Shown one piece after another: positions 16,150 through 59,789 of a stretch of 64,000 bases of DNA. Source of the DNA: Microvelia longipes (lineage: Eukaryota > Arthropoda > Insecta > Hemiptera > Veliidae). The position numbers and the translations under genes are program-made. Position 1 is the stretch's first letter. Every line of letters begins with the position of its first letter. The notes beneath the pieces were generated by a model. It saw only the letters and a program-made list of their open reading frames with translations, was not told the origin of the DNA and ran no database searches. The stretch lies in contig JACMZG010001870.1 in assembly GCA_018340805.1 (NCBI GenBank), forward strand, positions 52,140,658 to 52,204,657, read 5' to 3'.

Positions 16150-18047
16150 TCAGAAAGTTTTAGTAGGATTTGTTTTGTGATGTTTCATCTGCCAAGATTT
16201 AGTAATTCGCTTGGTAGTTACATCAAGATTACCTGTTTCTTTTGCTTCAAAATAAAGTTTAGTCGATTTCATATTTGTTATTAGTGTATTTGGAGTGTTT
16301 GTAATTTTCGTCTCTCCTTGCTTTGTGGTTTCTATATTTGCAGTAGTAATTTTAAAGGTGATCTCTGATTTCGTCTGGAATTCTTCTTCGACGTCACCAG
16401 GTGTTGTAGGTTTGATTTGCTTGAGAGCCGCAGTAGAGCCAGTTATACCACAGAACATTATTGGCTGAGAACAACTTGACGAATAAGACTTAAGTTCATT
16501 CGGCAGTTTAGGTTTTTCGATACTCGTAGTCGAGGAAGACAAATGCTTCAAGAATAGCGTCAAAGGAATGTAACTCTCAGAAGGGTCGCCGTTTTCCGTT
16601 CGCGATGCTTTTATCATACTGCCTTTTAAATTGTTTAACGTTTTCTGTTCTAGTACCAATGGATTGCTGTTAAGTTCTTCGTAAGGAGTAATTAGTTCGC
16701 AAGAAGTAACGCAAAAATCACAACTGTCGTTATTTCCGGTTGGAAAAGAAGGTTCCTCTTTGGAGCAAATCTTCAGGGACTTTATCGAAGGGGCATAATC
16801 GAGGTCGTGAATAGTATCATCTTCATTGCATTTCGTTGCTTCGAGATTTGGCAGGTTAATTGAATTGTCATCATTTTTTGTTGTTAGCCATTGATCCTCA
16901 ACTAAATGTCTATTTTTCTGATTTGCAATCAAAGTTCTGCAAGTCGAACTCCCTTTAGAAGTACGAAAGCAAGAAGTAAGATCCTCATTATCTGGGTAGA
17001 GAGTATGGAGAGTAGAATGAGGTTTGGCTGTTTTTGCATGAGTAGTTCTGGGTTCTGTTTTAGGAAGTTGGCTAGTAATCCCATCAGAGTCAACGCCAGT
17101 AGGAAAAAAACTCGAACTTGAGCAAGGAGTAATTTCTGACCAAGGGCATCTGATTGTAGAATCACTATCAACAGGATAATTACTAATGTTCAACGGATTG
17201 GTCGAACCTATGGGTTGCCATGTTGGATGCTGCTTAGTCATAGTAATATAAACACTCGAGGGATATTGACTAATTGCAGGTTTGCTGGTATCATTACGGC
17301 ACTGTATAGTTACAGCGCTGCCTTCCCTTTTCATACAAGAAATGGCCCTACCAACAGGATATTTCCTTATGATATTGCTTGAACGAGTGGTGGCCATGGA
17401 TTCCCATGATATTATAGGTTGCTTATTAATAGTCTTATTAGTTTCTGATTGTGTGAACATTTCATAACTCGAGCGAGATTGGTTTGTAAACCAATCTCCA
17501 AATTGTTGACCTGTAGATTCCCCAACAGGTAAATTAATCGGAGGATAGTATTCATATGGTGATCTTGTGTTAGTTGTCTGATCTATAGTAGATGAAACAA
17601 CATCTAAGCTAACAATAGGAGAAGTTTCAACAGATGTTTTCTCTAATTTTAAAGCAGTAGAATTAATCCCGACACAACTTCCTTCATCAGTAACATCTTC
17701 AAGTCCAACTTCACTTTCCTCGCCAGTGTCAGGCTCATAATCTAAATCAATGTCCCATGTAGAAGAGATCCTAGGAAATTCCGTTTTTAGATGAGACGGT
17801 ACTGGATTAGAACCTTCGCTAATGAAAAAAGGATCAAAACTCAATAGATCACTTACAGTAGAATAATCTATTTCGTTAAAGTCATCTGCAGTAGCGCCCT
17901 CTGGTTTCATTTGATGTCGGTTTCCCTCATGCTTTATACTTTCATAATTAAAACTTTCTGTTACATTACTGATAACTGCATCATGTTCTCTATGTTTTGT
18001 CATGTTATTTACCAATTTCTCTTCATTAATTGGTAAAATCTGGGTTC
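16150..18047 (-). CDS. IDS-like: Exon 9 of the sulfatase-like gene: 631-residue disordered C-terminal tail
   Basis: The exon follows TTTTTTAG and starts with two bases that complete the split Gly codon from exon 8 (Q-F-G|G-T-Q-I-L-P). It stays open for 631 codons to TGA. Animal IDS ends shortly after the residues encoded by exon 8, so this tail is extra. It is rich in Ser, Thr, Asn and Glu, with scattered Cys and many N-x-S/T sequons. It has an acidic stretch near its start (DIDLDYEPDTGEESEVGLED) and a Lys/Thr-rich end. I recognise no domain. The uninterrupted frame and fitting splice phase support it as coding. Confidence 0.8.
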
Positions 18048-21000
18048 CTAAAAAATAATTATTACGATTGAAAAGGCAAATCTAATGTATTATAATCAGA
18101 AAATTATTCGGGAAAAGGTATCGAGAGAAAAGGACAAGTTAAATGTGAAGGTTTAGCATTCAACAAAATGGCTTAAATTCAGTCGTACAGAATTATTCTG
18201 TAAATATTTTACCCATTTTTTTTCAAATCTAAGCAGAAGGACTTTGAACTTTTCCCTCCGCGCTTTTAAGGCACTTTAACAAAACAAAAGCCAACCATTA
18301 AAACAAATTAAAATTAAAACATTGATTATTCATATTAGAGACTTTAAAAGGGATTTGATAATTGCAAGCCGGACTCGCTTCGCTCATCTTTTTTTGCCAT
18401 TTGATTTCAATCAATTTATGTGTAATGATCTTGGACTGAAGTCGTTGATCTTTGATCAACCAAGTATAATACTCACACTCTAATTTTCTAACCATTTTGT
18501 ACTCTGTTCACTTTCTCAGAATATGAAGACAACTCGATGTCGAGTAAGTATCCATTACAGTCCAAGAGCCGGACCTGAAGAAATATGACTCATTTAAAAT
18601 TAAATATTTCTAAAAATATACCTTAAATTATTAAGAAAAAACATGGTCTGCCTATCCAGAGTGGAACTCTTCATATGATTGCACATGCGTAAAATTTTAT
18701 AAAATCGCACAAAATTCAGTTTTCTTCAAATAAGTGGTTCCCTGTGGGTCGTGTGCAAAACATGAAGAGAGCATTTTTTAAAGGTAATAAAATGTTTTAT
18801 TAAACGAGTGTTTAATCATCAAAATTGGATGACTTCAGCCAAAGTTATGGCTCTTTCAAAAGCACTGAAAAAATGGGTAACTATTTATATGGGAAAATAT
18901 TGACTCTTTGTGTATGTTGGGCTATTTAACAAATGTCATAACTTTAGTTGTATTAATCCAATTTTGACGAAAAAACACTCGTTTTAAAGGAAATTTTATC
19001 AGCTTTAAAGAAAGTTCTCTTCATGTTTTGCACACGGCCAACAGGGAACCACTTATTACAAGAAAACTGGAATTTGTGCGATTTCCTAATATTTTGAGCG
19101 AGCGCATTCATATGAAGGGACTTTTCCTTTATAATTAAAGGTATATTTTCAGAAAAGTTTGATTTGAAGTAGTAAAAAAATAATCACATTTTTTAGGCCT
19201 GGCTCTTGAACTACTACTTAAGATTAGTTACCTATATGTATGTATATAGGTTGGTTTCCTATGCCAACGACTCTTCGTGTGAAGGGTCAAGAAATAGACG
19301 ACGTTTTGTGTGTGATCCTAACACAAAACGTCCTAACTTCTCAAGACGAATTTGATGAAGGATTCAAAACAGTGACGAAACGTCATTTTATTTCAATGAA
19401 GCAAAGACACAATATCAACCAACTTGTTTTGGTCAGAACATAAATACCAAACTGACTAGGTCTCGGTAAAGCCGATGGACACCTCCAGCCCTTGTTCAAC
19501 TTTTTTCTCAATGTGTCGACTAACGGACGAAAAGCAGGTCTAGTAACTAAATTTAAACACTCAGTGGGGTCTATCTTGAAATCATACAGTTCATCGGCAA
19601 CCACATTCGATTTAGACCACTTATCAGAGGAGTTAGTCAGTTTCACCCACTCTATGTATTTATACCTGAAAATAAATTGATTATAGACTAAACAAAAGGA
19701 AATGAGAAAATACATTGATTGAGTAATTTTGTTAAGAATGAATTGGCATCACAGTTGAATACATAATAAAATATGTATTCAACTATTTTTTATCTTTCAC
19801 ATTTAGTGGTAAATTTCTAAAAGCAGCATTAACAAATGGCACCATTCTAAAAGTTCCTCTAGGTATAGTAATACTTGTTCTTTGGATAAGGAACAAAGCT
19901 TTTAGAATATGATTGATGAAAGTCTTGCGAAATCCCTTAAAATTCTAATATTCCATACTAGTTTCTTTGCTAAATTATAGTTCTAAACCAACACCCTTTT
20001 TTTCATAAATCCACTCAAATTACTAAAAAATGGTCACAAGGCCCTTGGAGCCTGACCATGGACTTGGCGATAAACGTAAAAAATTGTTTCATAACGTATA
20101 AACAAACCAATAATTTATAAATATTTTTTAATATATAATATAAATTAAGTAGGGAAACAAATGGGATTTCTGTCAGACATGGGATGCAGTTCATATTTCT
20201 TCCATCTGGGAGTTTACTTAAATTTTGCAATGAGTACAGCCATCTTGGTTAACCCTTGAAAAAGTAAACAAACTACTCAAGGTGCTCAACGTTTTTGTTT
20301 TTATTGCATTTATTTTTTTCATTTGTGTAAGAAATATTTTTGTCACATCTAGTGACGGGTTAGGCGGTTCTTCACATAAGAGGTTAGTTTAACTTTAAAT
20401 TACTTGAAACTAGCGGATTTTTAACTTCTTTCTTTAATCTGTTACTGTAAATTGCAGTTAAAAATTTGGTGTTACATAATATATGATATTTTATTGGGCT
20501 TTATCGTAGTTTAAGCCCAATAAATAACTACGATGTTATTAAAATTCCCAAGTATAACTTCTTTAGCTCACCCCTAAAGTATTTGTTTTTATTTTTTGGT
20601 TAGTATGTAGAAAATGTCGCAACTAAACCTATCATCTCTCTATTTAGTAAACTTTGTGTTACCTTTGAGTTCTGATAGCATAACCCATGATTCTAATGTC
20701 TTTTTTGAGAGGTTCTTCGCTATTAGACATCATACTGGGACTAAAACTCAGTCTTGGAACCTGACTGAATACGGCTTCTTTCCATGTCTGCACAAATGAA
20801 AAAACATACGTTGTTTGTAAATAAATTTTGCATTATTTGTTCTCACATGGCAATTGGCCATGAGTATTGCGGATTTTCAATGAGAAATGAACCTCGCCCA
20901 CTTGACTCGAATAGCCCTTTCAGAGCCACGCTTTTAACCGGCTTAGGAACATGAAGAACAATAACCCACTCGACCGCTTAATAAGAATGAATTTATTTCA

Positions 21001-24000
21001 TGTAATGACATAAATCTATGCATCTATTTTTCATTTGCATGTCAACATAGAATAATACTGAATATATATAGAAGAAGCACAACTGATAACATTAATGCTA
21101 GTTCACTGGTGGTCTTAAGTAATGCTGCCATCCTAAAAATAGAATATTTTCTCATTTCTCATAAGTTGGTAATAAATCCGATCACTGAATTATTGTTATA
21201 TTTTAAAAAAATGCTGGATTATTCAATAAATGCATATATTAGTGCATTATAATTTTTGAAGCATTTTCAATTGTATATAAACGTTTTTATTTATTTGCTA
21301 ACTTTATCTGGTTTTCTACTTACTTTTTCCTGTATATATTTTGTCTATTTATCAGATTTTTTCCTTTTTACTTTGATTAGGTGATACATTTTAATATTCT
21401 TCAATTTTCCCCTAAGGGGTGATAATGAATCTTACCTACAATTTATTTCTTCTTTATTAATTGTGAGTAATTCTTTTGAGCTTATTTTTGTAGATGTTGT
21501 ATTCCTGTTTATTACTTTTTCTATCAACTTATTGGATGTCATTTTTTGATTTATTACAGATGAATGATTATAACCAGTAGGGTAGAAACGTTTCCTTTAA
21601 TAACACAGTTTTTATTTATTTACCCTTTGGACCACAGCTCTCAAACCGATTCGACACAGGGTACAAACTTTTAGTTTTTTAGAAATTAAATACTGACCTG
21701 CATTTATGAACGTTCTTCATTGATGAATATTTATGATATACTTTTAAAATAATGTTTAGTTGTTAGGGTGTTACCCCTACTTAAGACCACCGGTGAACTG
21801 GCTTTCGTGTTATCAGCAGAATTCCATTGTTTCCAGTCCTAGGCTCCTTCTATACTAGTGGTATTTGTGGTAGGTTGGAATCATGCTCCATTGTATACAG
21901 CTGAGTTCTATGAGATACGACGTACAGGTCCTGCTCAATGAGGGCGGCTGTGATACGGGCATCACAGAAGGTAAAGAAAACGTCCTCAGTTTCGAAACTA
22001 CGGGTGTTTTCAAGTAACAATCAACTACGTTCATTGTTCAACTCCCTTTAAGCTCGATTTCAAGCCCTATTTATACAAACTCGTACAAATAGTGGCCTAT
22101 GATTGACTGATGGGAATAAAAATGCCCAAGTCAATTGGGGAGCTGGGAAAAATTAATGCAGCCTCTCATTGGTTCTTCTCCGTCGAGCTGAAGTTATAAT
22201 TAGAAAAATGGGTGTAATTTCAGGCATACAGAGCTGCCAGTATAAATAGACCATTTTTAAAAGTCTAGGACCATGTTTATTTTATATTTTTAAGTGTTAA
22301 ATGTGAGTGCATTTGAAATGTTAAGGAATCGAAAGTCCAAGCTGTATCGGTCCCTCTCTCTAATCCGCTTGTATGCCAACAACCTCAAAAGAAAACTTTT
22401 TGAAAATACAGTTGACATAGCAAAGTGCGTACTTCTATTCAAATGAAATAGTAGTATATAAAACACTAACAACTTACTGGATTGATAAAAGGCTTATTCA
22501 TCATTGTGTTAATGAGTGGTACGAGGCTTGTACCCTCAGTACACACACTCTGTGTACCAGAACCAGGTTCACATACAGGCATCTGATTTAAGCCAGCCAG
22601 TTCAACCAAGGTTGGAAACAAGTCCACAAGTTCAACCAGGTTGTAAGTTAATTTCCTAAACTTGATCCTTGTTGTTATGTCTGGTATGTAGAGTAATAAG
22701 GGAACTCTGATTGATTCGTCGTAGCAGGTGTGTCCTCCCCACAGGCCTCGCTCTCCTAGACTGCATCCTAGAAACCAAATGTTAAGGGGGCAAACATCTG
22801 TCACACAAGTCTGAGCATTACAAGGTGTGTAACTCTGGGTTCATCTATTAGATAGCGCACTAGACTGCACTACTTGTGTTTTCGTCAACTCGAAAAGGGT
22901 AAATTCATGATAAGAGTCATTAATGGCGTACTAATAAACTCTTATTTATACTTCAAAATACATTATTTATTCATTCAGAAACAAAAGTCTAAACCAGTTT
23001 GATTCGCTCCGATGCTTTTGAGAGAACATAACAGTTTTGTTCTCGAAAGTAACCAATAGACCGGCTGTGAAAAGATATTGGTTGCATTCAAAGGGTCTTT
23101 GTTGGTTCCTGAGGCGTAGCCGTGGAAGCCATGTAGTTAAATTCTCAATACTAAATATTGCTTAGCGATTTAGACTGATTTAATCCCGTGGTTTGTACAA
23201 GATTTACCCTTCAGAAGAGACAAAATACTATTCATAATAATAACAAAAACTTTGTTTATTTAGAATCCAAACATTTTTGATTTAACAAAAAATAATAATG
23301 TTTTGCCACGACTGATAATAACGTATAAAAACACAGTTAACATAATGATTTATTCAAAACACCAATAAATTAAAAAAACTGATTGCAAAGTCATGTTTAA
23401 AGGAACAGTGGTGCCAACTTAAATATTTGTAAAATGCGACTAAATAAAGATTTGCTATTTAAATGAAATCGGCAATACTGTATCATAAAGAATAACTAAT
23501 GCATAACTTGATGACAAGACAAGAAGGTACACATTACACCAGACAAATAAGTTATATTTTTTCAGTCTGGAAGAAATAAAAAACGTTTTGGTGGAACCAA
23601 AGAGACTTATACTACTAAAGAGAGGACTAGAGTTAAATAGCTCAGTGATATGGGGTCTGGTCGTGTGATAATATCCATTAGGTACCCTAACAGTACTTAC
23701 TCCTACAAGAATCTCACTAGAGAACGACTAGACTCCCCCCTTAGACGTAAAAGTTTGTGACAATGGTGGATTATGAGTAAAATTAGTTGGACGTAATCCA
23801 TTGTCAGTACTATTTACAATTAACGACGTTTCGGGAGCAGGACTTTAACCTAACTTCGTAGGCAGGTATCAACGACTTTGAAACCTTGTCTACGATGGGG
23901 CCTTCCCCGGTCTATATAGGGATCAGGGTTCCTTATATACCTCCTAACCCTAATCCCTATATAGACCGGGGAAGGCCCCATCGTAGACAAGGTTTCAAAG

Positions 24001-24741
24001 TGCATAACAAAGTCGTTGATACCTGCCTACGAAGTTAGGTTAACGTCCTAACACCCAACACTTGACTCACATACCGTCTTTCTCAAGACGAACCTGATGA
24101 TGGGAGAAGTACCTGCTCCCGAAACGTCGTTAATTGTAAATAGTACTGACACTGGATTACGTCCAACTAATTTTACTCATAGACTCCCCCCTTTTAAAAC
24201 CACTATTGGAGCACGTATCCTCCCTTTAGAAGGGTAAGTCTCATTGGGTAGATCCTACCCAATACTCTCACAGAAGGATTGTTATATGAAGGTAAAATAT
24301 ATGATAGATAAAAACCTTCATTTGCAAAAATACTAATAAAAGTACTATGGCAAATCGTAGGATGTATAAGTCAAGGAAACTCAAACCGTTACCATGGTCT
24401 CCAGTCAAAGCAATGATAGTGTTATCCATGAGATTCAAATCTTCCAGCTGATTCAGTATTTCGCCTATCATATCATCTATATACGTCAGGGTTGCAAAAT
24501 AACTATGTTTCACAGCCAGTGTTTCATTCACTGCAAAATCAAATCCATCATCATTTACTCAGCAAATTTAACTTATGTTTTACTCATTTACGTAAATAAT
24601 TTATGGTTTCAATAGGGATTGTACCCTCCCCAAGGTTGAGATTTTCGTACCAAGTTTGATTAAAAAAAATATTCATCTGTTCGATCCGTTTGATAGTGTG
24701 TTTATAATTTCCACTAGAAATACATACACATATTCTATACA

Positions 24742-24826
<85 letters not shown>

Positions 24827-27800
24827 TATATATAATATATATATATAATTTATATATAATATATTTTATATATATATATACTAAGTTTCACAAAACATAT
24901 TTCGTAATGTAACTCCAAATCGGATTTTGGACACCCCCCCCCCTCCACACGAGCCATCTCATTATGGAATGAGATGGCTTCGATGATGAGAAAGGCTTGA
25001 AACAGACTTATAATGCTAGAAGGACTAGACATTATAGATCAAGGACAAGAATCAAGGAAACCTACAGACTATGGTTTAGTTTAAAAATCTTGACAGGTCA
25101 GTTTAGACACCACTGATTCTTAAGAAAAAAATCCCTGCAAGAGGGAGCAGGAAAAACGATGTAAACAAATCAGGTTATTTTACCCGTATTTTCTTGGCGA
25201 TGTTTTTTTTCGTTTCTTTTTCTGTAGTTTTATTTTATAATATCATTTTAAGATTAATTTGAAAGTAGTTTTCAAAACGATGTAATCAATAGAAGATCCA
25301 CAAACAAAGTGAACGATTGCCAGGAAGAAGGTTTTTTCCCTACGGCGGTTATTGTGGTAGGGATTTTTTTCTCTTTTAAAGTGAGAGGTTGGCAGCATCT
25401 TCTCTGATTGGTCAATCCCCAAAATACTTATGACTTTGGGGATTTTTAAACTAAACGATAGACTGTATGTCTGACTTTGCCTGTACACAATAAACAACTT
25501 GAAATGGCAATGGAACAAACCTGGTAAAACTCCATAGGGAAAGGTCAGGTTAAGATTTTTGATATCTTGATACTTCTTATAATCATAGCAGAGGTGCCAC
25601 GACACAGCAGGCATACCACTTGGCCTCACTACATTCTTAGGACACACCATATTTTTCTTTGAATTAGGTTCTGCAACATTAATAAATATTAGATTTTCTT
25701 TTCTATACATGTTAGTCATTGATAATATTAAAAATCAGGTACGGGGTACCTCGGAACTTTTCCTCATTACATCGGATTCGCTACGCTCAGCCTCCCTGCT
25801 TCGCTCATCCTCAGGATGTACAATTCGCCAAATTTATACTGCAACATGTCTTCGGACTCGCTTCGCTCGTTTTCAGAAATACAGTTCGCCAAATTATACT
25901 GCAACATGCCATTGGACTCGCTCGTCTTCAGATAGTGAATGCATCCGCATCATTCTTAGCGGTCACCCATACACCACTGACCACACTCAATGGTCCTTAA
26001 TTTTTATAATCCAAAAAAAATCATTGATATACTTGTCGAATTGAAACAAACATTGTGCAACTATTTATTGCGTTAAGTGATACATTTTTACTAAATATAA
26101 ACTCAATTGGACCATTTCCCAATTTTTTACTATTTTGTAAAAAACGTACACAAGTCATTCAATAAAAATTGAACTAATGCTGATAATGAGATGAAACTTA
26201 GAGAAACTTATACAAAGTCACATGCGTGCCAAATCTCAATCCGATCGCATCGTTTTTCTGCGTTTTATGATTTTTTGAATTTTTGTTGTGTCATTATTGC
26301 GGGCTAATGACATCATACCTGAGTGCAATCACTGGATTGTTTCTCAATCAAGCGCACCAAGCCATTAAAACTGTGCTAACTCTAATACTTGTAACAATCA
26401 CAATTGTTGTTGTATTATTCAATAAATAAAATAAAAAAATAAAAAAAAAATAAATGACATCATAAAAAATTATTTTCTAAATAGCACAACTACAGTGGTA
26501 GACTGATTTTTGTACAAAGTTTGTCTGCCTCCGTGGCCGTGATCGTAAAGGCGTTCGATTTCGGCCCCGGAGGTCCGGGGTTCGCAGCCCGGGCTATGCT
26601 CTAAGATTTTATGAATAGTATTTGTATTAAAAAGATTTCGCCAACTTTAATTAATTCTTGGAGTGTAGTAGATCCAACCCACCTGAGGTGGTTCCCGCAG
26701 GGTTAATACCCTGATGGGCCGAAAGGCCCTAAAACGGGCATTTTATTATTTTTTTTAAATAGCACAACTACAGTGGTAGACTGATTTTTGTACAAAGTTT
26801 CAACTCTCTAGCAGCGCTACGATGATAGTAGACACACACATACATACAGACAGACAACTTTGCAAAAACCACTCAGGAGGCCTTAAAAACGTCTGAAACG
26901 GATAATTCCGTTTCGATTTTTTTTGCAAACACAATACTTTTCCTATATACCTACTGTATAAATGAGGAAAAGTAAAAATAGCTTAAGTCTGAGTAGAGGA
27001 CTAGATTTAGATGGTAACATCATAGAGATATTATTACTAGAGGGGCCCTATAGGTTAAATTGTGAAACATCGAAAAAGTAACCTGACCACCTTCGCTTAT
27101 AAATATAATCAAATAATCAGTACAAAAATACAATAACATATATAGTAAAACGTTAAAAATACAAATCAAAACACTATTAATGTACTGGAAACCAAAATAA
27201 ATTTAATAATTATAACCTTAACTCACTCTTAAAGGTTTCAATGAGGTTACAAAGAGCCCCTGAGAGCCCCAAAATGATGTTTCAGGCCTCTCAATATATT
27301 GAGATAGGCTTTGCCCCCTCTAGTATATATCTCTATATATACCAGAAGTATAAATAGAACCAGAGTAATAAGTAGACGTCAGAATTTGAGGCTTGTTTTA
27401 CTCTGATTTACTGCTAATATAGATTGAATTCATGTTTTTATCTACTCCTTTTATTGTAAGTTCTACATACAGTCTTGTTACCTCACACTGTAAATGTGCT
27501 TTTACTCCCTAGGGAAGAAAAGTGAAAGTGTTGCCAACTTGACAGAATTTTTTAGTAAAATTTTTAGGAATTTTAGGAAATTTTTAGGATTTTTTTCGGT
27601 GTTATGTTGGTACTACGGGTAGAATATACAATACACACACGCTAATGTTTGAATTACAAATATAGTATTACACATTATTCTATTGACAGCTTACAATAAA
27701 ATAATGTGAAGATAGTGGCTTTATTCTCTCTTCATCAGAGTAATTGACATGGTAAGAATAAACTAAACTAACACAATAACAATTAAGGAGCTGAAGAATA

Positions 27801-30800
27801 TATTAATAGTTGTTAGTATTAGTTCTCTAGTCGTAGATAAAATTTAATTTGCAACAAGGAATGAAAGTTTTCAGCTCTCGTATTATCTCCCTCGTCAAGC
27901 CTCGGGAGCTAACTAGTTGATCTCCCTCGGCCTACCGGCCTCGTGAGCTAATGAAGTTTCCTCCTTCGGCGCTGCCTTAGGACGAAACTTTAACTTGAGC
28001 TGTAAAACTTACTTTCATCTCTTGTTGCATAAATAACAATTACTTTTCCTCATTTATATCGTAGGTATATAGTGAAAGTATAGTGTTAGCACTAAAGTAA
28101 TATATAAACCAAGTAGGGAGCTCACATATTACATATTGTCCTCCAGGAAGTTGGCTCAAATTTTCCTATGACCGCGGCCATTTTGTTTTAGCCTAGTAAA
28201 TGTAAACAAAGTATTAACGGTACTCAAAATTTTTGTTTTTATTGCATTTATTTGAACAGTTTAGTTTAAAATGTTAACAAATTGTGCAAGAAATACATTT
28301 TGCCACATCCAATAGTGGTTTAAGTATGTATCTTTAAATACTAGGTTTGTTTAGATTACTTAAAACGAGCGGCTAATTAAACTTTTTTTTTCTTGTGCAC
28401 TATTTAACATAGACAATTTTACAAATGATATTTGTTTTTTCCCCTTCAAATATTCATTGTAATTAGTAATTTAACAAATTTAACCTAATTTTTTTTAATG
28501 TAATAAAAGCAATTGTAATTTTAAGGCAATACACTGTCGTCTGCATTTTCGTCAAAATCTTAATAAAAACATGTGGTTTACCTTCACTATAGTTTCTCTT
28601 TATCTAAATTATTATAATAATTATTTCACAGAATTTAATAAAAAATCATTAAATTATCACGAACATATTAAAATACGAAAACACGATAAAATGTAAAACT
28701 CACCTATTGTTATCAGGGTTGCCAATAAAATTAAATTAAAAAAACCTAAATCCTAAAAAGGCGCATGCGCAGTTATTCTAATTTTAGCTATTTTTTATTT
28801 TTGAGCCAGCTATCAGCTGATCGGGCAGGTCTGAATTTTTTTTACATGTGTCAGCATAGGAGTTTCCCAACTTGGTTTATATATTACTTTAGTGTGCACT
28901 TAAAATCCAAAACCGTGATTTCACATGAATTGTCTATTTCAGGTGCTTTATAGACCTCCTGAATAATTTTTAACAAATTGTCTGTCTATACGTGTGTGTG
29001 TGTTTTTTATCAACTTAGCTCCCACTTTGTTTATGTTACAGAGTTAAAACTTAGTAAAAGAAAGAATTTAGACAAAGAGCCCAGGGGTGTTTTGTTAATA
29101 AAAAGTATAATGGCTTGAAACGGGTTTAATTTTTCGTAAATACCTTCCTGAACAAGGATCTGCAATTCTGCCGACTCGTATCGGATGGGTATCCCAGGCA
29201 GAACGCACTTTAGGGGTCAAAGGTTCTGCCTGGGACACCCATCCGATACGAGTCGGCAGAATTGCAGATCCTTGTTCAGGAAGGTATTTACGAAAAATTA
29301 AACCCGTTTCCAGCCATTACACTTTTTATTAACAAAACACCCCTGGGCTCTTGGTCAATAAAGTGCGTTTTGCCTGGGACGCCCATCCGATACGAGTCTG
29401 CAGAATTGCAGATCCTTGTTCAGAAAGGTATTTACAAAAAATTAAACCCGTTTCCAGCCATTACACTTTTTTTTAACTTGTGTGGTAAATTTGACCTGTA
29501 AAGTGCGTTCTGCCTGGGACACCCATCCGATACGAGTCTGCAGAATTGCAGATCCTTGTTCAGGAAGGTATTTACGAAAACTTGAGACCGGTTCCAGCCA
29601 TTATACTTTTTATTAACAAAACACCCCTGGGCTCTTGGTCTATAAAGTGCGTTCTGCCTGGGACACCCATCCGATACGAGTCGGCAGAATTGCAGATCCT
29701 TGTTCAGGAAGGTATTTACGAAAAATTGAGACCGGTTCCAGCCATTACACTTTTTATTCACAAAACACCCCAGGGCTCTTGGTCTAATAGATAAGTCTAG
29801 TTTTGCTATTCAGTGTCGTTAACCAGTAAAAATTAAAAGAAAATAAAAAAAATGTTTTGTTCAATTTGAAATTTTTGCGCATGTAGTCATTTATAAGATC
29901 AATAAATGCGCTAAGTTTCAACTTATTATCAAGATTAGTTATAATTTTTCTTGCATTGGTTTTTAAAAAGACCGTTAAGAATCGAAAAATAATCCAAATT
30001 AGTTAAAGTCAGGTAAAAGAGTTTCCCTCTGTTATCAATGTTATCTTTAAAGGAACTTTTTGTTATTAAGTTGATAAAAAAAATTACTTAAATATTTCAA
30101 AGGGAATCTGAAGGGAACGCCAGGTCTGAAAAATCCAATGCTTAGAAAGAACGGTTTGTTTTCCTTCGTTTGTTCCTTCCCTGGTGGTGTTTTCTCTGTT
30201 TCTTTTTTCAAAGGTGCCTTGTTAGTCTCATCTTCTACCAGAGCTTCAGGTATGTTAAGGAGTGGAGTTTTAAGTGATCTAGATGATAACAAATCTGCTT
30301 CATCATAGTCCAAATGATGGATCATACAAACAGAACTATCGATTATGTTTCCTTCATTCTTATTAATCAATTTATCAAAATCGCCACTAAACTTCGGACA
30401 GTTCAAAATCCTATTTTGAAAACTAGAACGTTTTTCCCAATCATCAAATGAAGTTAAACTTGATTCATTTCTAATTTGATAAAGACCTCTAACAGCACTT
30501 AATTTGTCAAATAAATTTACATGAGTTCTTTTGGTCATATTAAAAAACACCATGGCACTTGCATTATTAATAGAACTAGGGTGAGCACCCATGTTGATTA
30601 AAATAATAGCACAACTCAGACTCTCGTTTCTAACAGGTATGAAAGATTTACGAATTTCAGAAGAATAATCACTTGTTGTAAAAAGACAGTTCCCTCCAGT
30701 CATTTTGGAATCAAAATTAATTGGGATCCCAACATCATATTCAGTCTTAGATTCATCTGTTGAAGTATAGTTAATAGATTTAGTCGTTAGGATGCTGCTG

Positions 30801-33800
30801 ATGATTGGTTTTGATGTGGAAGAAGGTTTTATAAATATAGAAACATCATCAGCGAATATTGTAGAATTAGTTTTTAAAACTGAGTTAGGGTTTAAGAATG
30901 ACTTAGTACTGTTAGTAACTGACTTATCAGTGGCATACCTGGAAATATATCTAGCAGGGCCATTTTTAGTAATTGATATAGTAAAGGCATTCCTAGTGGT
31001 TGTTTGTTCAGCAGTTGTACCTCGAGGAGTATATTTAGCATTGGAATTTCTAGTAATATACCTACCAGGACCACCTTTAGTAGTATATTTATCATTGGCA
31101 TCCCTAGTAATTGCTTCAGCAGTGATATTACTATAAGAATATTTAGCAGTAGCATCTTTGGTGATAGGTTTAGTAGAGCTTCCTTCAGTAAATAATTTAA
31201 TATTGACATATTCAATAATATATTTATCTTTAGTGTCTTTAATAATATATTTATTAGTGAAGTATCTGGTAATCGATTTAGCAGTGGTATCTCTAGTAAT
31301 ATGTTTGGCAGTGGTATCTCTAGTAATATGTTTGGCAGTGGTATCTCTAGTAATATGTTTGGCAGAGGTATCTCTAGTTATGGGTTTAGTAGTGGTATAC
31401 TTAGGGATTGATATAGATGTGGTATCTTTAGTTATTGATTCAGCAGAGTCTTCATGGTTAATTGCACAGCCAGCTTTAGGGTGAGGGTCTCGAGAGCTCA
31501 GCACAGGTTTCACTGTGCTCATATAAAGTCCAGGTAAATTAGCTGTAATATAATCGGGCTGCTTTTTTGAGCTATAAGAGCATATTGAATCTTCTAAAGA
31601 GGTGATAGGTTTCATTGTTCCAGAAGTAATATTTGGTTTTGTACATGATGACATTTCGTTTTTAGGTTTCATTGGTTTAGTACAAGATGTCATTTCCTTT
31701 TTGGGATTATTTCGTTTGGTAGTACATGAAATTTTATGAGTAGGTTTATTTGGTTTTGTTGTAGATGTTATTTGGTTCTTAGGTTTAATTGGTTTTGTAC
31801 AAGATGACATTTCATTTTTAGGGGTGATATTTGGAATTACACAAGATGAGGTTTCGTTTTCAGGTTTCATTGGTTTTGTACAAGATGTAATTTCGTTATT
31901 AGGGGTAATATTTGATTTGGTAGTACATGATATTTTATGAGTAGGTTTATTAGGTTTTGTTGTAGATTTCATTTGGTTCTTAGGTTTAATTGGTTTTGTA
32001 CAAGATGAAATTTCGTTTTTATGGGTAATATTTGGAATTGCACAAGATGACATTTCGTTGTTAGGTTTCATTGGTTTTGTACAAGATGTAATTTCGTTTT
32101 TAGTGGTAATATTTGGAATTGCACAAGATGACATTTCGTTTTTGGGGGTGATATTTGGAATAACACAAGATGACGATTCGTTTTTAGGGGTGATATTTGG
32201 AATTGCACAAGATGAAATTTCGTTTTTAGGGGTGATATTTGGAATTGCACAAGATGACATTTCGTTTTTGGTGGTAATATTTGGAACTGCACAAGATGAC
32301 ATTTCGTTTGTAGTGGTAATATTTGGAATTGCACAAGATGACATTTCGTTTTGGGTGGTAATATTTGGAATTGCACAAGATGACATTTCGTTTTGGGTGG
32401 TAATATTTGGAATTGCACAAGATGACATTTCGTTTTTAGTGGTAATATTTGGAATTGCACAAGATGCCGATTCGTTATTAGGTTTCATGGGTTTCGTACA
32501 AGATGTCATTGCGTTTTTAGGATTATTTGGTTTGGTAGTCCATGATATTTCATGAGTAGGTTTATTTGGTTTTGTTATAGATGTCATTTCGTTTTTAGGG
32601 GTAATATTTGGAATTGCACAAGATGACGATTCGTTTTTGGGGGTGATATTTGGAATAACACAAGATGACGATTCGTTTTTAGGGGTGATATTTGGAATTG
32701 CACAAGATGAAATTTCGTTTTTAGGGGTGATACTTGGAATTGCACAAGATGAAATTTCGTTTTTAGGGGTGATATTTGGAATTACACAAGATGAACTTTC
32801 GTTTTTAGGTTTAATTGGTTTTGTACATGACGTCATTTCGTTTTTAGGAGTATTTGGTTTGGTAGTACATGATATTTTATGAGTAGGTTTATTTGGTTTT
32901 GTTGTAGATGTCATTTCAGTTTTTGGTTTCCTTGGTTTGATAGTACATAATAATTCATTTGTAAGTTTGTTTGGTTTAATTGAATATGTCATTTCGTTTT
33001 CAGGGGTAATATTTGAATTTGGGCAAGCTGACATTTCGTTTTTAGTTTTACTTGGTTTTGTACAATTTGGTTTTTCGTTTTTAGGTTTGATTGGTTTGGT
33101 AGTACATGATGCTTTATTTGTAGGTTTATTTGGTTTTGTTATGGATGTCATTTCATTTTTAGGGGTAATAGTAGGTTCTGTACAAGATGACATTTCATTT
33201 TCTGGGGTAATATTTGGTTCTGTACAACCTGGCAATTCGTTTTTAGGTTTACTTGTCTTTGAACCTGATGGCATTTCGTTTGTAGGTTTAATTGGTTTTG
33301 TACAAGATGGCATTTCGTTTTTAGGCATATTTGGTTTTGTAGTACATATTTTATGTGTAGATATATTTGGTTTTGATGTAGATGTCATTTCATTTTCAGG
33401 GGTTATATTTGGTTTTGTGCAAGTTGACATAGGTTCACTTGGTGTGGTAGAACATGATATTTCATTCGTAAGTTTATTTGATTTCGTTGTCATTAGTTTT
33501 TTATGAGAAATATTCGGTGTAGTAGAAAATGACTGTTCGTTTCTAAGTTGTTTTGTTATTGGTGATGATGAAATTTTAATTTTAGGAGTAATATTTGGTT
33601 TAAATGGCTTATGAGTTTCTCTAGGGTTCGAATGCCTATCTGTAGTTGTATCATATTTTCCATTAGAGCTTTTAAATCTTTGCAAAAAATTCTTTGCGCT
33701 AAGAACAATTTCTTGATCAGGGAGCAGCTTAGTGTACTGAAACTCAGGAAACAACGGACAGACCAGACTAGATATGACACTTATTTGCTTCTTGTTGTTA

Positions 33801-36800
33801 ACGAAGAGACAGGTGGAGTCATTATCATGGCGTGATGACTCCGGCATGAAGCTTTCACTCCATGACCTGCTCCCTACATTGCTAGTATTTCTTTCGTCAG
33901 TAGATAATGCTGAGTTATCACCTGTAAATATAAGGACATAGTTTACATAATACCTGTAAACATAAAAACAATACAGGTGTTATTATTAAAGGCTTTAGAA
34001 AGAGCACAGGACTGTAAACACAATGTAATTTTACTGATAACACGAAAGCTAGTTGACTGGTGTTCCTAAGTAGGGGTACCACCCTAACAACAAAACATTA
34101 TTTTATAAATGTGTTATAAATAACCACTAATGAAAAAAGATCTTAAGTTACCAATGAAATAACTTAAAATAAAAACCCTGTTAAGTACTAAATAAAATCG
34201 GTCTTAGATAAGCAAAAGGGTAGGGGGATACGGAAATCTACATTTAGTTGATGAGGACCACTTTGAAAATAATTGGCATTAAAAACGTTAAAATACAATT
34301 TAAAAAGCTTAAAATATTGTAATGCACTGATATTTATATTATTTTTTTTATGAATAATCAATTATTAATTAATAATAGAACCCAATAATTCAGCAGCCAG
34401 AAATATTGCCAACTTCATTAAAAAAACATTTTATTTTGTCAGGTTGGCAGCATTACTTAAGACCACCAGTGAACCGGCTTTCGTGTTATCAGTAGTGCTC
34501 CTTAGAGGTAATATACGAATAAAATTATGTATTTGTTGTGGGATTGGTCTGAGATGGGGTATTCCGCACATACAGAGATGATATCTCAGTGACACCCTGT
34601 ACGTTTCTGATTAAGTTTTCTCTGTAATAAAAACCGAATAAGTTATAATAAATTGAGAGTTGAAATTTTCTCTCCTAGTAATGTGAACTTAGACTTATGT
34701 GTGAATGTAGAAGTTAAAATTCTTTCAGTGAAAGCCAGAGATGCAGAGTATGTCCCAACACTCGAACATAATTTGGGAAAAATAGGGTAGGGGATGGGGA
34801 AAGTTTTGCTTCGAAATATCATGAGGAAAATGTTGACAAAAATTACAAACCAATAACATTTGTTTGTAAAACTGTGTATTTTATTTGTATCGTTGTCTCA
34901 ATCACTAGCACTTCTGCAGCTTAATTACTGACAAGTGAATCCAAAATCGAATCTCTTATTTTGAATTCTCTTATTTTAGACAATGGCCCGCCTTTCACAT
35001 ATTGTAAATATTTTTATATATTTTAAAAAGGGTATTGGTTTCAGTTTGATTTACTCTTTACCTCTTTTATAATTACTTTTTTTATTTCTAGACAAATACT
35101 CATATTTATATTATAGGGGATATAAAGTAAAATTTACTGATCGACTTATCTTAGTATTGTGTGTAATGCATTGTCAGCAAAATACCTATAATATATAAGG
35201 ATGTAAATAAAAGTCTATCCACATATAAATTTCAACCAATGTAATGATGACAAAACTGGCTTTCAACCTAATACAGGTCATCCTCAGTGCCGGTGAGAAG
35301 AAGCTAATTTTTCCTCTTGAGTCTTGTAACAAGATTTGAGACTGTCTGACAGTCTCAATTTATTTACAAATGTAAATTATTTGTAGTTCATTATTATTAT
35401 TTATTTTTTTATTAATCTCTTATTCTTTGTAATTCTATACTTTCAAAAATATTTTTATACTTGTTAAAGAAAATAATAAACATTTATTTATTTATTTATT
35501 TATTCTCACCGGCACTGAGGATGACCTGTATTAGGTTGAAAGCCAGTTTTGTCATCATTACATTGGTTGAAATTTATATGTGGATAGACTTTTATTTACA
35601 TCCTTATAGTAAAAAATCCACTAGCGCTTATAATTTAAATACTATAATATATGTTTTTTACTTTTCTTCAATTATATCATAGGTATAAAGGTAAAGACTG
35701 CCTCCGTGGCCGTGATTGTATAGGCACTCGATTTCGGCACTGGAGGTCCAGGGTTCACAGCCCGGGCTATGCTCTAAGATTTTATGATTGTTATTTGTAT
35801 TAAAAAGATTTCGCCAACTTTAATTAATTCTTATAGTGTAGTAGATGCAACTCACCTGATGTGGTTCCTGATGGGCCAAAAAACGATAAAACAAGCATTT
35901 TATTTTTTTAAAGGAAAAAATTGTGTTTACACTAATTATCCGAAACTGAGATTTCACCTGAATTGTCCATTTCAGGTGTTTTAAGACCTGCTGAGTGGTT
36001 TTCACTAAGTAGTCTGTCTGTTTAAAACTTATGTATTCACTGTCTAAATACATAAACCACAAATATAAAATTTGAAGATTTTCATATTCAAAGGGCTAAT
36101 GAAGGGAGTCCAAAGTAAGTAATGAGGATAAGTGAAGGGAATCTAGTGTGGGGAGGAATAGTTAGAAACAGCTTAAGCTTCTACTAAAACCCTAAGATCC
36201 AACAAAATCTAGTTGTCCACAATCTTAGTTTTGATTCAAGAAAATAAAATTCCATATAAATTTTACCCAATGGAAAGACCTTCCCGATTGACTTAGTCAG
36301 GTAGCCGTTCTGCTTGAAGTATTGAGGCATGGTGGTAATATTTTCATTGTTCCATGAAGACAAGGAGTCAGGTCGCCGGCTCGTGAATAAAGAGAGCCTG
36401 CTGGCACCAGGTGACGGAATCTGTAACACATTGCATAATAGCCTTTCTCATATTATATTCTTAAGCTTATATTATTATTATTAAAAAGAGACAAATTTAC
36501 ATTAAAACGTAGAAAGTGAAGAATTGGACAATACACAATGAACAGCTACCAATAAGCACTTGAAAACAAAAAGATTATGGGCTATAGAAACTAAAAGTGA
36601 ATAATGAATGCAAAGCTGCAGACAGTAAATTTAGGCTTTGACCCATGGACTTCTGACTGGGCGTGGAGGGTAAAAGGATCATTTCAGCAAGGTTAGAAAA
36701 GATCCTTGCTGTCGAGTGATGTCAAAACACTCACCTCACCAGAGACTCACAGCATCAAAGCCTGTAGCAATTAACTCTTGAAGATCCCACGAGACAAGAT

Positions 36801-38314
36801 AGAGAAATGTAAGGCCTATACTAAAACACTGGATTTAAGTAAAACTTATAGGATATTTAAAATTAGTTTATATGAACATAAATGTAAACTTTGAGGCTCA
36901 TTATAAGTGGGAGAGACAGCTACAACACTGCAAGTGTTAAAATGAGGGATCAGCAGTATAGACAGTGTTCCGACTCCCAACCTTTACGTGAACCTGAGCA
37001 AATTCTGTCACTTTTAGTTCTCTGAATATCCATATTGTAGCACCACAAGTCCTGCCTCTCTTCTATTTTTCACCAGCCATAAAAACTGGTTCATGCAGCT
37101 TTCTTTTTTGAATTGGTTTATAAAGTGCTTAATACAAGAGTTGAATTTATATAGATTTTATTTTTTCACCCGATCTCCCGGTTTCAGCTTTACCTCATAT
37201 TCCATGGTGGTAATTTTTCATGAAGCTCAAGTAAATAATAAAATTGCTTTGATTTTCAATGTTCATATGGTTTGTGATAGAACATCAAAAATGAACATTA
37301 ATTTGATAGAACATCAAAAATGAACATTAATTGCCTCTGACGTGATATATGTATACCTTTTCCGGTGATAAAGCCCCAGTTTTGGAAACATACAGCTCCA
37401 GCTGCTAGACACGTCGTAGAGAGTTCAGACCGGGCTAATTTTATTTTTAGAAAAGCTAAGAGTACCCAAGAGGGGTTTAGAAATATTAAGGGTGTCCCCC
37501 CCCCCCAAAAGTAGTTCATTCGGAAAATAACAGTAAAAATTATTCCCTCAAACATAATTTAAAACTTTTACCAGCACAATTTGTGAAAGAATATTTGCTT
37601 GCATTTCTGAAATCCATCAGATATACTTAAATATTGTACGTGTAAAATACTTATAAAATTAATATCATTGAGAACACATTGAATTATATTAAAAATTGCA
37701 CTCTTAGGTGACCGTTGATTAGCAAAAGCTAAAAATCAACAATGCAGCATGTAGGTACTAGTGCCGCAGACTAGCGGTGTGGTAGATGAACTAGACTTTC
37801 CTTGATTGAGAGCTGGTCGAAAAACGGTGGAAGTCAAAATAATTGATAGTCAAAGGTGTTCAGGTTACTTTTCAATATTTTAAAATTCAACCAATAGGGT
37901 CCAAAAAATTGGCAATAACTATACCATCTAAATAGTAAGTATAATAAATTAAGTTATTTTATTCATTTTAAATTGAATAATGTCTCTACCGCCGACCACT
38001 TATATTATACATCACTTAATACAAAAGGTTCAATGCTTTACAAACATATAATAATAATGACAGTTCTGTGATATGTCAAAAACTGACAGTAAATTAGTTA
38101 CCTGGGTAAAAGCATTCTGAAAGATCAAACATTTCGAAGAAAATAAATTTATATTCGGAGTAAACGGAGAATCAGATCCGTTCCTAAACAAATTGCTCCG
38201 GAAATTCGGAACGATTATTAAAATAACGTTCCTTTTACTCGATTCCACGGACAAAACAAGTAAAATCACTAAAGAAACCAGCACATTTTGAATATCACTC
38301 AACCTTCCCGCCAT
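16150..38314 (-). CDS. IDS-like: Secreted iduronate-2-sulfatase-like pseudoenzyme with giant repeat insertion and C-terminal tail
   Basis: Nine exons: 38314-38102, 36420-36267, 33921-30088, 25670-25521, 24530-24393, 22767-22478, 20787-20663, 19665-19448, 18047-16150. All introns are GT-AG, all phases fit, and the total is 7020 nt (2339 residues plus stop). Residues 1-26 are a signal peptide. The remainder follows animal iduronate-2-sulfatase: NVILIIV, IFQNAFTQ, TMPQYFKQNGYLTKSIGKVF, PFFLSIGFFRPGVPFRFP, FPYGVLPV, TGDHG, LVELVDLFPTLVELAGL, IRIMGYAIRT. Normal IDS is a lysosomal enzyme of about 550 residues that desulfates heparan and dermatan sulfate. Here the metal-binding DD is PN, the formylglycine CxPSR is PGASR, and three more catalytic residues differ. 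About 1170 repeat residues interrupt the domain. Hydrolase activity is very unlikely. The ATG at 38314 is chosen because the signal peptide follows it. Confidence 0.92.
18563..19208. mobile_element. Foldback element, arms about 230-290 bp, in intron 8 of the sulfatase-like gene
   Basis: The left half (AAGAGCCGGACC, then CATATGATTGCAC, AAGTGGTTCCCTG, TGCAAAACATGAAGAGA, TTTATTAAACGAGTGTTT) reappears as its reverse complement on the right (AAACACTCG, TCTCTTCATGTTTTGCA, CAGGGAACCACTT, CATATGAAG, GGCCTGGCTCTT). No coding sequence. Confidence 0.7.
19300..19332. other. Perfect 12-bp inverted repeat (hairpin)
   Basis: GACGTTTTGTGT at 19300-19311 and ACACAAAACGTC at 19321-19332 enclose nine bases. 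It lies in intron 8, just upstream (plus-strand sense) of a degraded hammerhead-like motif at 19351-19386, and probably belongs to the same element. Confidence 0.7.
21055..21855. mobile_element. MITE family C, degraded long copy
   Basis: Starts near ATAATACTGAATATATATAG with GAAGAAGCACAACTGATAAC. Ends with CTGGCTTTCGTGTTATCAGC and GGCTCCTTCTATACTAG, which match the ends of the intact copies. It is longer in the middle and more diverged, and no target duplication is clear. It lies in intron 6 of the sulfatase-like gene. Confidence 0.6.
23772..24181. mobile_element. Long foldback element carrying a hammerhead-like motif
   Basis: The left arm starts TATGAGTAAAATTAGTTGGA and the right arm ends with its reverse complement. 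The arms (about 150-200 bp, with a gap on the left) meet near 23931-23950. TAGACTCCCCCCTT-like sequence occurs just outside both ends, a possible target duplication. It lies in intron 5 of the sulfatase-like gene. Confidence 0.75.
24091..24131 (+). ncRNA. Hammerhead-ribozyme-like motif inside a foldback element
   Basis: The core CTGATGA (24094-24100) is followed by helix II GGGAG/CTCCC (24102-24106 with 24116-24120), then GAAA (24121-24124), C and GTC (24126-24128). Helix I is AAC before the core and GTT after GTC. Helix III is the self-complementary ACGT. All invariant core bases are present. The left arm of the foldback lacks the CTGATGA half. Activity is inferred. Confidence 0.5.
24740..24882. 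repeat. (TA)n microsatellite
   Basis: About 140 bp of nearly pure TA dinucleotides with a few interruptions, in intron 4 of the sulfatase-like gene. Confidence 0.9.
25080..25468 (+). repeat. Dispersed repeat B, copy 2
   Basis: Matches 5845-6335 from GACAGGTCAGTTTAGACACC to ACGATAGACTGTA. It ends about 50 bp from exon 4 (25521-25670) of the sulfatase-like gene, so it lies just inside intron 4. Confidence 0.75.
25731..26973 (+). mobile_element. Repeat family A, copy interrupted by a SINE
   Basis: Opens AAAATCAGGTACGGGGTACC, continues with AACTTTTCCTCATTACATCG and ends AAATGAGGAAAAGT. It contains several TTCGCTCG-type motifs and the usual CTGAAACGGATAATTCCG segment. A SINE sits within it. The short plus-strand frames at 25709-26044 fall here and are not genes. 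Confidence 0.75.
26523..26755 (+). mobile_element. SINE with tRNA-like head (copy 3), flanked by a 45-bp direct duplication
   Basis: Starts GTCTGCCTCCGTGGCCGTGA, has a B-box-like GGGTTCGCAGCCC, then a body with TTCGCCAACTTTAATTAATT, and ends CCTGATGGGCCGAAAGGCCC plus an A/T tail. The same 45 bp (TAAATAGCACAACTACAGTG onward) lies at 26478-26522 and 26756-26800. The short hairpin GGGCCgaaaGGCCC near the 3' end recurs in degraded form in the other copies. Confidence 0.85.
27435..28040 (+). repeat. Dispersed repeat D, copy 2, with terminal foldback
   Basis: Same landmarks as the copy at 14505-15170, including CCCTAGGGAAGAAAAGTG and the paired arms GCAACAAGGAATGAAAGT and ACTTTCATCTCTTGTTGC. A short internal segment is missing relative to copy 1. 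It lies in intron 3 of the sulfatase-like gene. Confidence 0.75.
29070..29785. repeat. Satellite: four direct units of about 143 bp plus one inverted unit
   Basis: Direct units begin TTCTGCCTGGGACACCCATC at about 29224, 29367, 29509 and 29651 and end CACCCCTGGGCTCTTGG. The first unit (29070-29215) is in reverse orientation, so the junction near 29216 is a head-to-head inverted repeat. Small frames on both strands are by-products. It lies in intron 3 of the sulfatase-like gene, about 300 bp from the repeat exon. Confidence 0.9.
30088..33921 (-). CDS. IDS-like: Exon 3 of the sulfatase-like gene: about 1170-residue repeat insertion inside the sulfatase domain
   Basis: Acceptor TTTACAG, donor A|GTAATT, 3834 nt. 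The first 84 codons align to IDS (SRSWSESF, then LLPDQEIVLSAKNFLQRF), and the last 22 or so align again (PFFLSIGFFRPGVPFRFP). In normal IDS these parts are only a few residues apart. Between them are about 45 units of 13-14 residues, typified by MSSCAIPNITPKNE and MTSCTKPMKPKNE. A Thr-rich 9-residue array (ITRDTTAKH) follows, then a less repetitive Ser/Thr-rich part. Most units hold one Cys, and many hold an N-I-T sequon. In a secreted protein this suggests heavy glycosylation. The frame stays open through 3.8 kb of repeats. Confidence 0.88.
33993..34505. mobile_element. MITE family C, diverged copy
   Basis: CTTTAGAAAGAGCACAGG at the left and GCTTTCGTGTTATCAGTAGT with GCTCCTTAG at the right match the inner parts of the intact copies. 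The outermost bases are eroded and no clean target duplication remains. It lies in intron 2 of the sulfatase-like gene, 72 bp from exon 3. Confidence 0.65.
35198..35606. mobile_element. Inverted-repeat element with about 100-bp arms
   Basis: The left arm (35198-35295) begins AAGGATGTAAATAAAAGTC and ends CAGTGCCGGTGAGAA. The right arm (35503-35606) is its reverse complement. The right arm contains CTGAGGA, an ACCT/AGGT hairpin and GAAA, which recalls a hammerhead core with a damaged helix III. Located in intron 2 of the sulfatase-like gene. Confidence 0.8.
35700..35910 (+). mobile_element. SINE with tRNA-like head (copy 4), decayed
   Basis: Starts CTGCCTCCGTGGCCGTGAT, with a B-box-like AGGGTTCACAGCCC, the body TTCGCCAACTTTAATTAATT, and a degraded CCTGATGGGCC tail region. 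It sits between family A-like fragments on both sides, so it probably inserted into a family A copy. Confidence 0.75.
36267..36420 (-). CDS. IDS-like: Exon 2 of the sulfatase-like gene: former formylglycine site, now PGASR
   Basis: Acceptor GTTACAG, donor G|GTAAAA. It encodes IPSPGASRLSLFTSRRPD, then ITTMPQYFKQNGYLTKSIGK and VFPLG. It aligns without gaps at its start to IDS AVCAPSRVSFLTGRRPD. The Cys that is normally converted to formylglycine is Pro75, while Ser78-Arg79 stay. Further on, the catalytic Lys of GKVF is kept (Lys118), but the following catalytic His is Pro121. The exon is otherwise well conserved. Confidence 0.9.

Positions 38315-38975: not shown

Positions 38976-59789
<20,814 letters not shown>

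Follow-up and report, generated by a model that had tools for sequence, protein, structure and literature searches.

Gene structure

The window, as we call the whole 64,000-nucleotide stretch of Microvelia longipes DNA analysed here, contains a gene related to that for animal iduronate-2-sulfatase (IDS), the enzyme missing in Hunter syndrome. Nine exons on the minus strand (16150-38314) join in frame to give 2339 codons and a stop, with no internal stop or frameshift (Table 1). All eight introns are GT-AG (16 intact splice ends), and an AATAAA lies approximately 20 nt downstream of the stop codon. The intact nine-exon, 2339-codon model of the original prediction for this DNA was reproduced; the extent given there, 24393-38314, holds exons 1 to 5 and leaves out exons 6 to 9, including the LWGGH exon and the tail, as the gene runs to 16150. 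A long inverted repeat at approximately 23780-24200 in intron 5, recognized by eye, is probably a small mobile element.

Similarity to animal IDS

The closest solved structure to the encoded protein (the window protein) is human IDS (6IOZ and 5FQL, E 2e-79), with the next solved sulfatase at 1.4e-35. The best IDS match spans both halves of the sulfatase domain, which are separated by a long insert and were joined in different ways for different analyses. The first joining (residues 27-170 plus 1327-1707), which retained some insert and missed a short true stretch, was used for the solved-structure match, the search of a protein collection, the genome query with the window's own halves and a 13-row alignment; its errors left the loop near the insert misaligned in that alignment. 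Residues 27-211 plus 1377-1707 were used for the Pfam scan of the halves (Sulfatase, 122 bits), and residues 27-212 plus 1377-1707 for the trees, the structural-Cys check and the active-site mapping.

The protein-collection search gave 932 matches at E <= 1e-3, the best 120 of which were examined. Identity is 44% or less to every one of these 120, and the top named proteins among the matches listed are beetle, locust, bee, scorpion and spider IDS. In two trees of chosen homologues, the window protein groups with insect IDS (support 77/74 and 92/96) and belongs to neither the beetle nor the bee/wasp group, both of which are well supported. The tip branch leading to it measures 2.37 and 2.04 changes per column, compared to median tips of 0.39 and 0.42, and the exact place of the protein is unsure because of this length.

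The segments that define the fold are conserved, as had been predicted: of 84 alignment columns with no variation among 12 other IDS, 58 are kept in the window protein (counted in the 13-row alignment, with its misaligned stretch near the insert), as are four structural Cys that are disulfide-paired in human IDS. One pair we take to be C171-C184. The pair C422-C432 is given in the available text of PMC5472762. The window protein therefore shares with animal IDS (5FQL, 6IOZ) sulfatase-fold sequence over both halves, structural Cys and a placement among insect IDS, and differs from it in the loss of six of ten active-site residues, an insert of 1164 residues and a tail of 632 residues.

Active site

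The available text of PMC5472762 names ten active-site residues in IDS (D45, D46, C84, R88, K135, H138, H229, D334, H335 and K347), with H226 named apart from them. Located in the window protein through its alignment with the 120 homologues, six of the ten proved to be replaced (D45P, D46N, C84P, H138P, H229G and K347G) and four to be kept: R88 (R79 in the window protein), K135 (K118), D334 (D1495) and H335 (H1496). The replacements include two of the four metal ligands (D45, D46, D334, H335). All ten sites are kept in 107 of 111 listed homologues, a count that accepts H, N or Q at H335 and leaves out nine of the 120 with incomplete coverage; the others have one change (two proteins), two changes (one) or three (one). 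Asn stands at H335 in 2 of 119 listed homologues.

This alignment bears out the replacements P36, N37, P75, P121 and G1508 of the original prediction, along with the kept K118, D1495 and H1496. The count given in that prediction, six residues lost from nine, stands for the six, while the published set numbers ten and R79 is also kept. A catalytic His has been lost from the GYHKPH motif, as was claimed, although the site is Gly1390 (H229) and not Phe1387 (H226), three residues off: by spacing, H229 is the second His of the motif, and His is found there in 117 of the 120 listed homologues versus 75 at H226. The motif C-x-[PA]-[SA]-R is absent from all six frames of the window; thus, no alternative formylglycine-motif exon, of the CxPSR kind that had been considered as a substitute for exon 2, is present within these 64 kb.

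Judged from its sequence, the product is unable to work as a formylglycine sulfatase, and the combination of an intact reading frame with lost catalytic residues marks it as a predicted pseudoenzyme. It is very improbable that it is still an enzyme with a chemistry needing neither formylglycine nor the metal pair: D334, H335, R88 and K135 remain, but the joint loss of the nucleophile, the metal ligands and both catalytic His speaks against it, and formylglycine is called essential for IDS (PMC5472762, available text).

Repeat insert and tail

The insert interrupts the fold in a loop that directly precedes the former H229 strand. It is basic and sequon-rich, with one Cys per approximately 14 residues. 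In the part built of 14-residue repeats, S+T+P reaches 41% and 26 of 36 Cys-to-Cys gaps are 13 or 14 residues long. The sulfatase halves are also basic by composition; the tail is acidic and S/T-rich, and no Pfam family was matched by it. Insert and tail comprise 77% of the protein and alter its likely function, and the title and reasoning of the original prediction omit both. T/S/P-rich tandem repeats are also a feature of the secreted mucin-like proteins of insects (PMC6530529, PMC2515642, available text of each), whereas the window repeats interrupt a sulfatase fold, have many Lys and Asn and form a regular Cys ladder.

The gene model, drawn from genomic sequence, could be mis-joined, with exon 9 (the tail) or the repeats of exon 3 outside the mature mRNA and a dead sulfatase of ordinary size as the product. 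The lack of a Pfam match in the tail and of a giant homologue in the searches (see below) is consistent with this. We consider it improbable, as exon 3 lies in a single 1310-codon open frame that is sulfatase-like at both ends and exons 8 and 9 join in frame at GT-AG sites; the six active-site losses hold either way.

Table 1. Features of the IDS-like gene (window coordinates)
Feature	Position	Strand	Remarks
Exon 1	38102-38314	-	N-terminus resembling a signal peptide (residues 1-26, judged by eye); first sulfatase strand
Pro36-Asn37 replacing D45-D46	38204-38209	-	Exon 1
Exon 2	36267-36420	-	Formylglycine site, PGASR instead of CxPSR; GKVF
Pro75 (formylglycine Cys position)	36409-36411	-	Exon 2
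Pro121 replacing His138	36271-36273	-	Exon 2
Exon 3	30088-33921	-	Insert flanked on both sides by sulfatase sequence
Insert, residues 213-1376 (1164 aa)	30161-33652	-	36% S+T+P, net charge +59, 43 Cys, 38 N-glycosylation sequons
42-bp array core (14-residue, SSCAIPNITPKNEM-like repeat)	31996-32852	-	20.8 copies, 82% matches
27-bp array	31265-31398	-	5 copies
Gly1390 replacing H229	30119-30121	-	Exon 3
Exon 4	25521-25670	-	Sulfatase domain
Exon 5	24393-24530	-	GDHG; D334 and H335 kept as Asp1495 and His1496
Exon 6	22478-22767	-	Cys1562 and Cys1572 kept
Gly1508 (LWGGH) replacing K347	22733-22735	-	Exon 6
Exon 7	20663-20787	-	Sulfatase C-terminal subdomain
Exon 8	19448-19665	-	Sulfatase homology ends
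Exon 9	16150-18047	-	S/T-rich tail, residues 1708-2339; stop at 16150-16152

Exons of a BCAS3-like gene (Pfam BCAS3_WD40; 41170-46257, plus strand) lie upstream of the IDS-like gene on the opposite strand. Further along the window is a 1094-codon open frame (56505-59786, plus strand) that is rich in Lys, Ser, Glu and Asp and has no Pfam or PDB match.

Other inactive or probably inactive enzymes

One database protein, the IDS-like P0079, also lacks the formylglycine Cys and has replacements at two of the other sites lost here (C84G, H138P, H229R). It differs from the window protein in having an ordinary length (476 aa) and both metal Asps, and a sister relationship of the two was rejected (p-AU 0.0006), with long branches on both. 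IDS-like proteins therefore seem to have lost catalysis on more than one occasion. No dead IDS is described in the titles and abstract openings of the literature searched.

Heparanase-2 is a comparable case of a dead enzyme fold maintained in the same substrate world (PMC12406646, available text); its fold is unrelated, and it exists alongside an active paralogue, whereas the searches made here gave no active IDS. According to the same text, inactive heparanase-2 appears to counteract heparanase-1, a precedent for reading the window protein as a glycan-binding decoy or regulator, whose dead domain would bind heparan or dermatan sulfate extracellularly through a basic cleft and compete with other binders. 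R88 and K135 are kept, and the sulfatase halves and insert are basic, in agreement with such a role. This explanation is rather unlikely, however: the window protein has lost H229, K347 and the two metal Asps, residues that bind metal or sulfate in IDS (PMC5472762, available text).

Other sulfatases and heparan sulfate genes

The search of the whole genome for a second intact IDS that the original prediction called for gave none in the assembly: two protein queries, the window's own halves (nine matches) and the intact IDS P0002 (six matches), hit only exons of this gene. Because no second IDS was found, the gene is apparently not a spare duplicate. A Pfam Sulfatase search of the genome gave 17 matches: this gene, 12 others that were read, and four lying close to these. 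By eye, we take the 12 to resemble arylsulfatase B, Sulf and PIGO. Two arylsulfatase-B-like exon matches of 177 bp, L007 (C518:30.47 Mb) and L008 (C562:54.39 Mb), have identical translations on two contigs and represent either a recent duplication or an assembly duplicate.

Genes for making the substrate were also sought. With human 2-O-sulfotransferase as the query, six matches of 44-62% identity were obtained on a single contig, together spanning residues 1-283 of 284. Human C5-epimerase as the query gave three exons (56-64% identity) that cover only residues 10-143 of 523. In the exons read, the frames are open except for stops at match edges or in intron-like sequence. Pfam Sulfotransfer_2 gave two matches only, by eye like a chondroitin and a 6-O-sulfotransferase, and there was no Pfam match to IDUA in the genome; as Pfam missed the 2-O-sulfotransferase that the protein query found, Pfam negatives in this genome are weak evidence. 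Thus, 2-O-sulfation of heparan sulfate appears to be possible in this species and epimerisation is only partly supported. Loss of the whole iduronate branch was ruled out by the full-length 2-O-sulfotransferase and the N-terminal epimerase exons.

Origin and possible function

The explanation that we favour, with a probability of roughly 0.55, is that this is an IDS-derived gene whose dead domain forms part of a secreted structural or mucin-like product, in a species that is perhaps without IDS activity. At the sequence level, this descendant of the animal IDS gene, in an insect-like animal, has lost the nucleophile, the metal Asp pair, two His and a Lys while retaining fold segments and structural Cys. 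The repeat insert lies in the loop before the H229 strand, and the S/T-rich tail comes after the domain. From its composition, the protein is predicted to be secreted, and the folded dead domain would carry a long, basic, heavily glycosylated and disulfide-capable arm, which may serve a secretion or matrix as a structural or mucin-like component. We give less weight to the idea that dedicated IDS activity would be missing from the species, though its heparan sulfate would still be 2-O-sulfated.

The original prediction called the product a secreted pseudoenzyme that is not decaying. Nine intact exons on a long branch, the conserved Cys and invariant columns, and the absence of a second IDS from the search results support this in part; that the gene is kept is drawn from the intact frame only. 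A competitor on this point is a unitary pseudogene caught early, in which catalytic constraint was recently lifted and the frame is not yet disabled. The long branch, the lack of an orthologue in the searches and a repeat pN/pS indistinct from neutral are all compatible with it. On the other side, 2339 open codons and 16 intact splice ends persist on a branch of 2.0-2.4 changes per column, and losses are concentrated at active-site residues while the structural Cys are kept. Prolonged neutral decay is disfavoured by an approximately 7-kb frame that has stayed intact along such a branch, and we regard the early pseudogene as unlikely.

Several observations weigh against a secreted structural product in a species without IDS activity. 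The signal peptide was judged by eye only. A query for orthologues of giant length gave none at E <= 1e-3, and one for intermediate length, which scored only the 7991 candidates sharing most words, gave 19 weak matches, the best with 32% identity over 18% of the query. Alignment-free models had a mean pLDDT (predicted local distance difference test) of 33.6 for residues 1180-1378, around the end of the insert, and 34.4 for the tail, values that neither support nor exclude a fold there. The repeat pN/pS (nonsynonymous to synonymous ratio) is 0.60 in frame versus 0.70 and 1.49 in the shifted frames (20 of 29 copies), which does not discriminate. Finally, neither the Pfam domain search nor the protein query recovered the C-terminal half of the C5-epimerase, and iduronate synthesis is not secured.

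The species may lack IDS activity, as suggested by the two negative protein searches of one assembly. A stronger and more doubtful reading is that it is a natural animal IDS knock-out, in which heparan sulfate is still 2-O-sulfated and the sole IDS gene now encodes a structural protein, secreted and mucin-like; we consider this less likely than not, in part because the epimerase evidence spans so few residues. If it is true, the animal has dismantled a lysosomal sulfatase that mammals lose only with severe effects, while at least one substrate-making gene was kept, and the material that builds up in Hunter syndrome would have to be tolerated, excreted or broken down by another route. The giant repeat arm would then be carried by a rebuilt metabolic enzyme that was single-copy and no spare paralogue, and heparan sulfate turnover without IDS could be studied in a living species.

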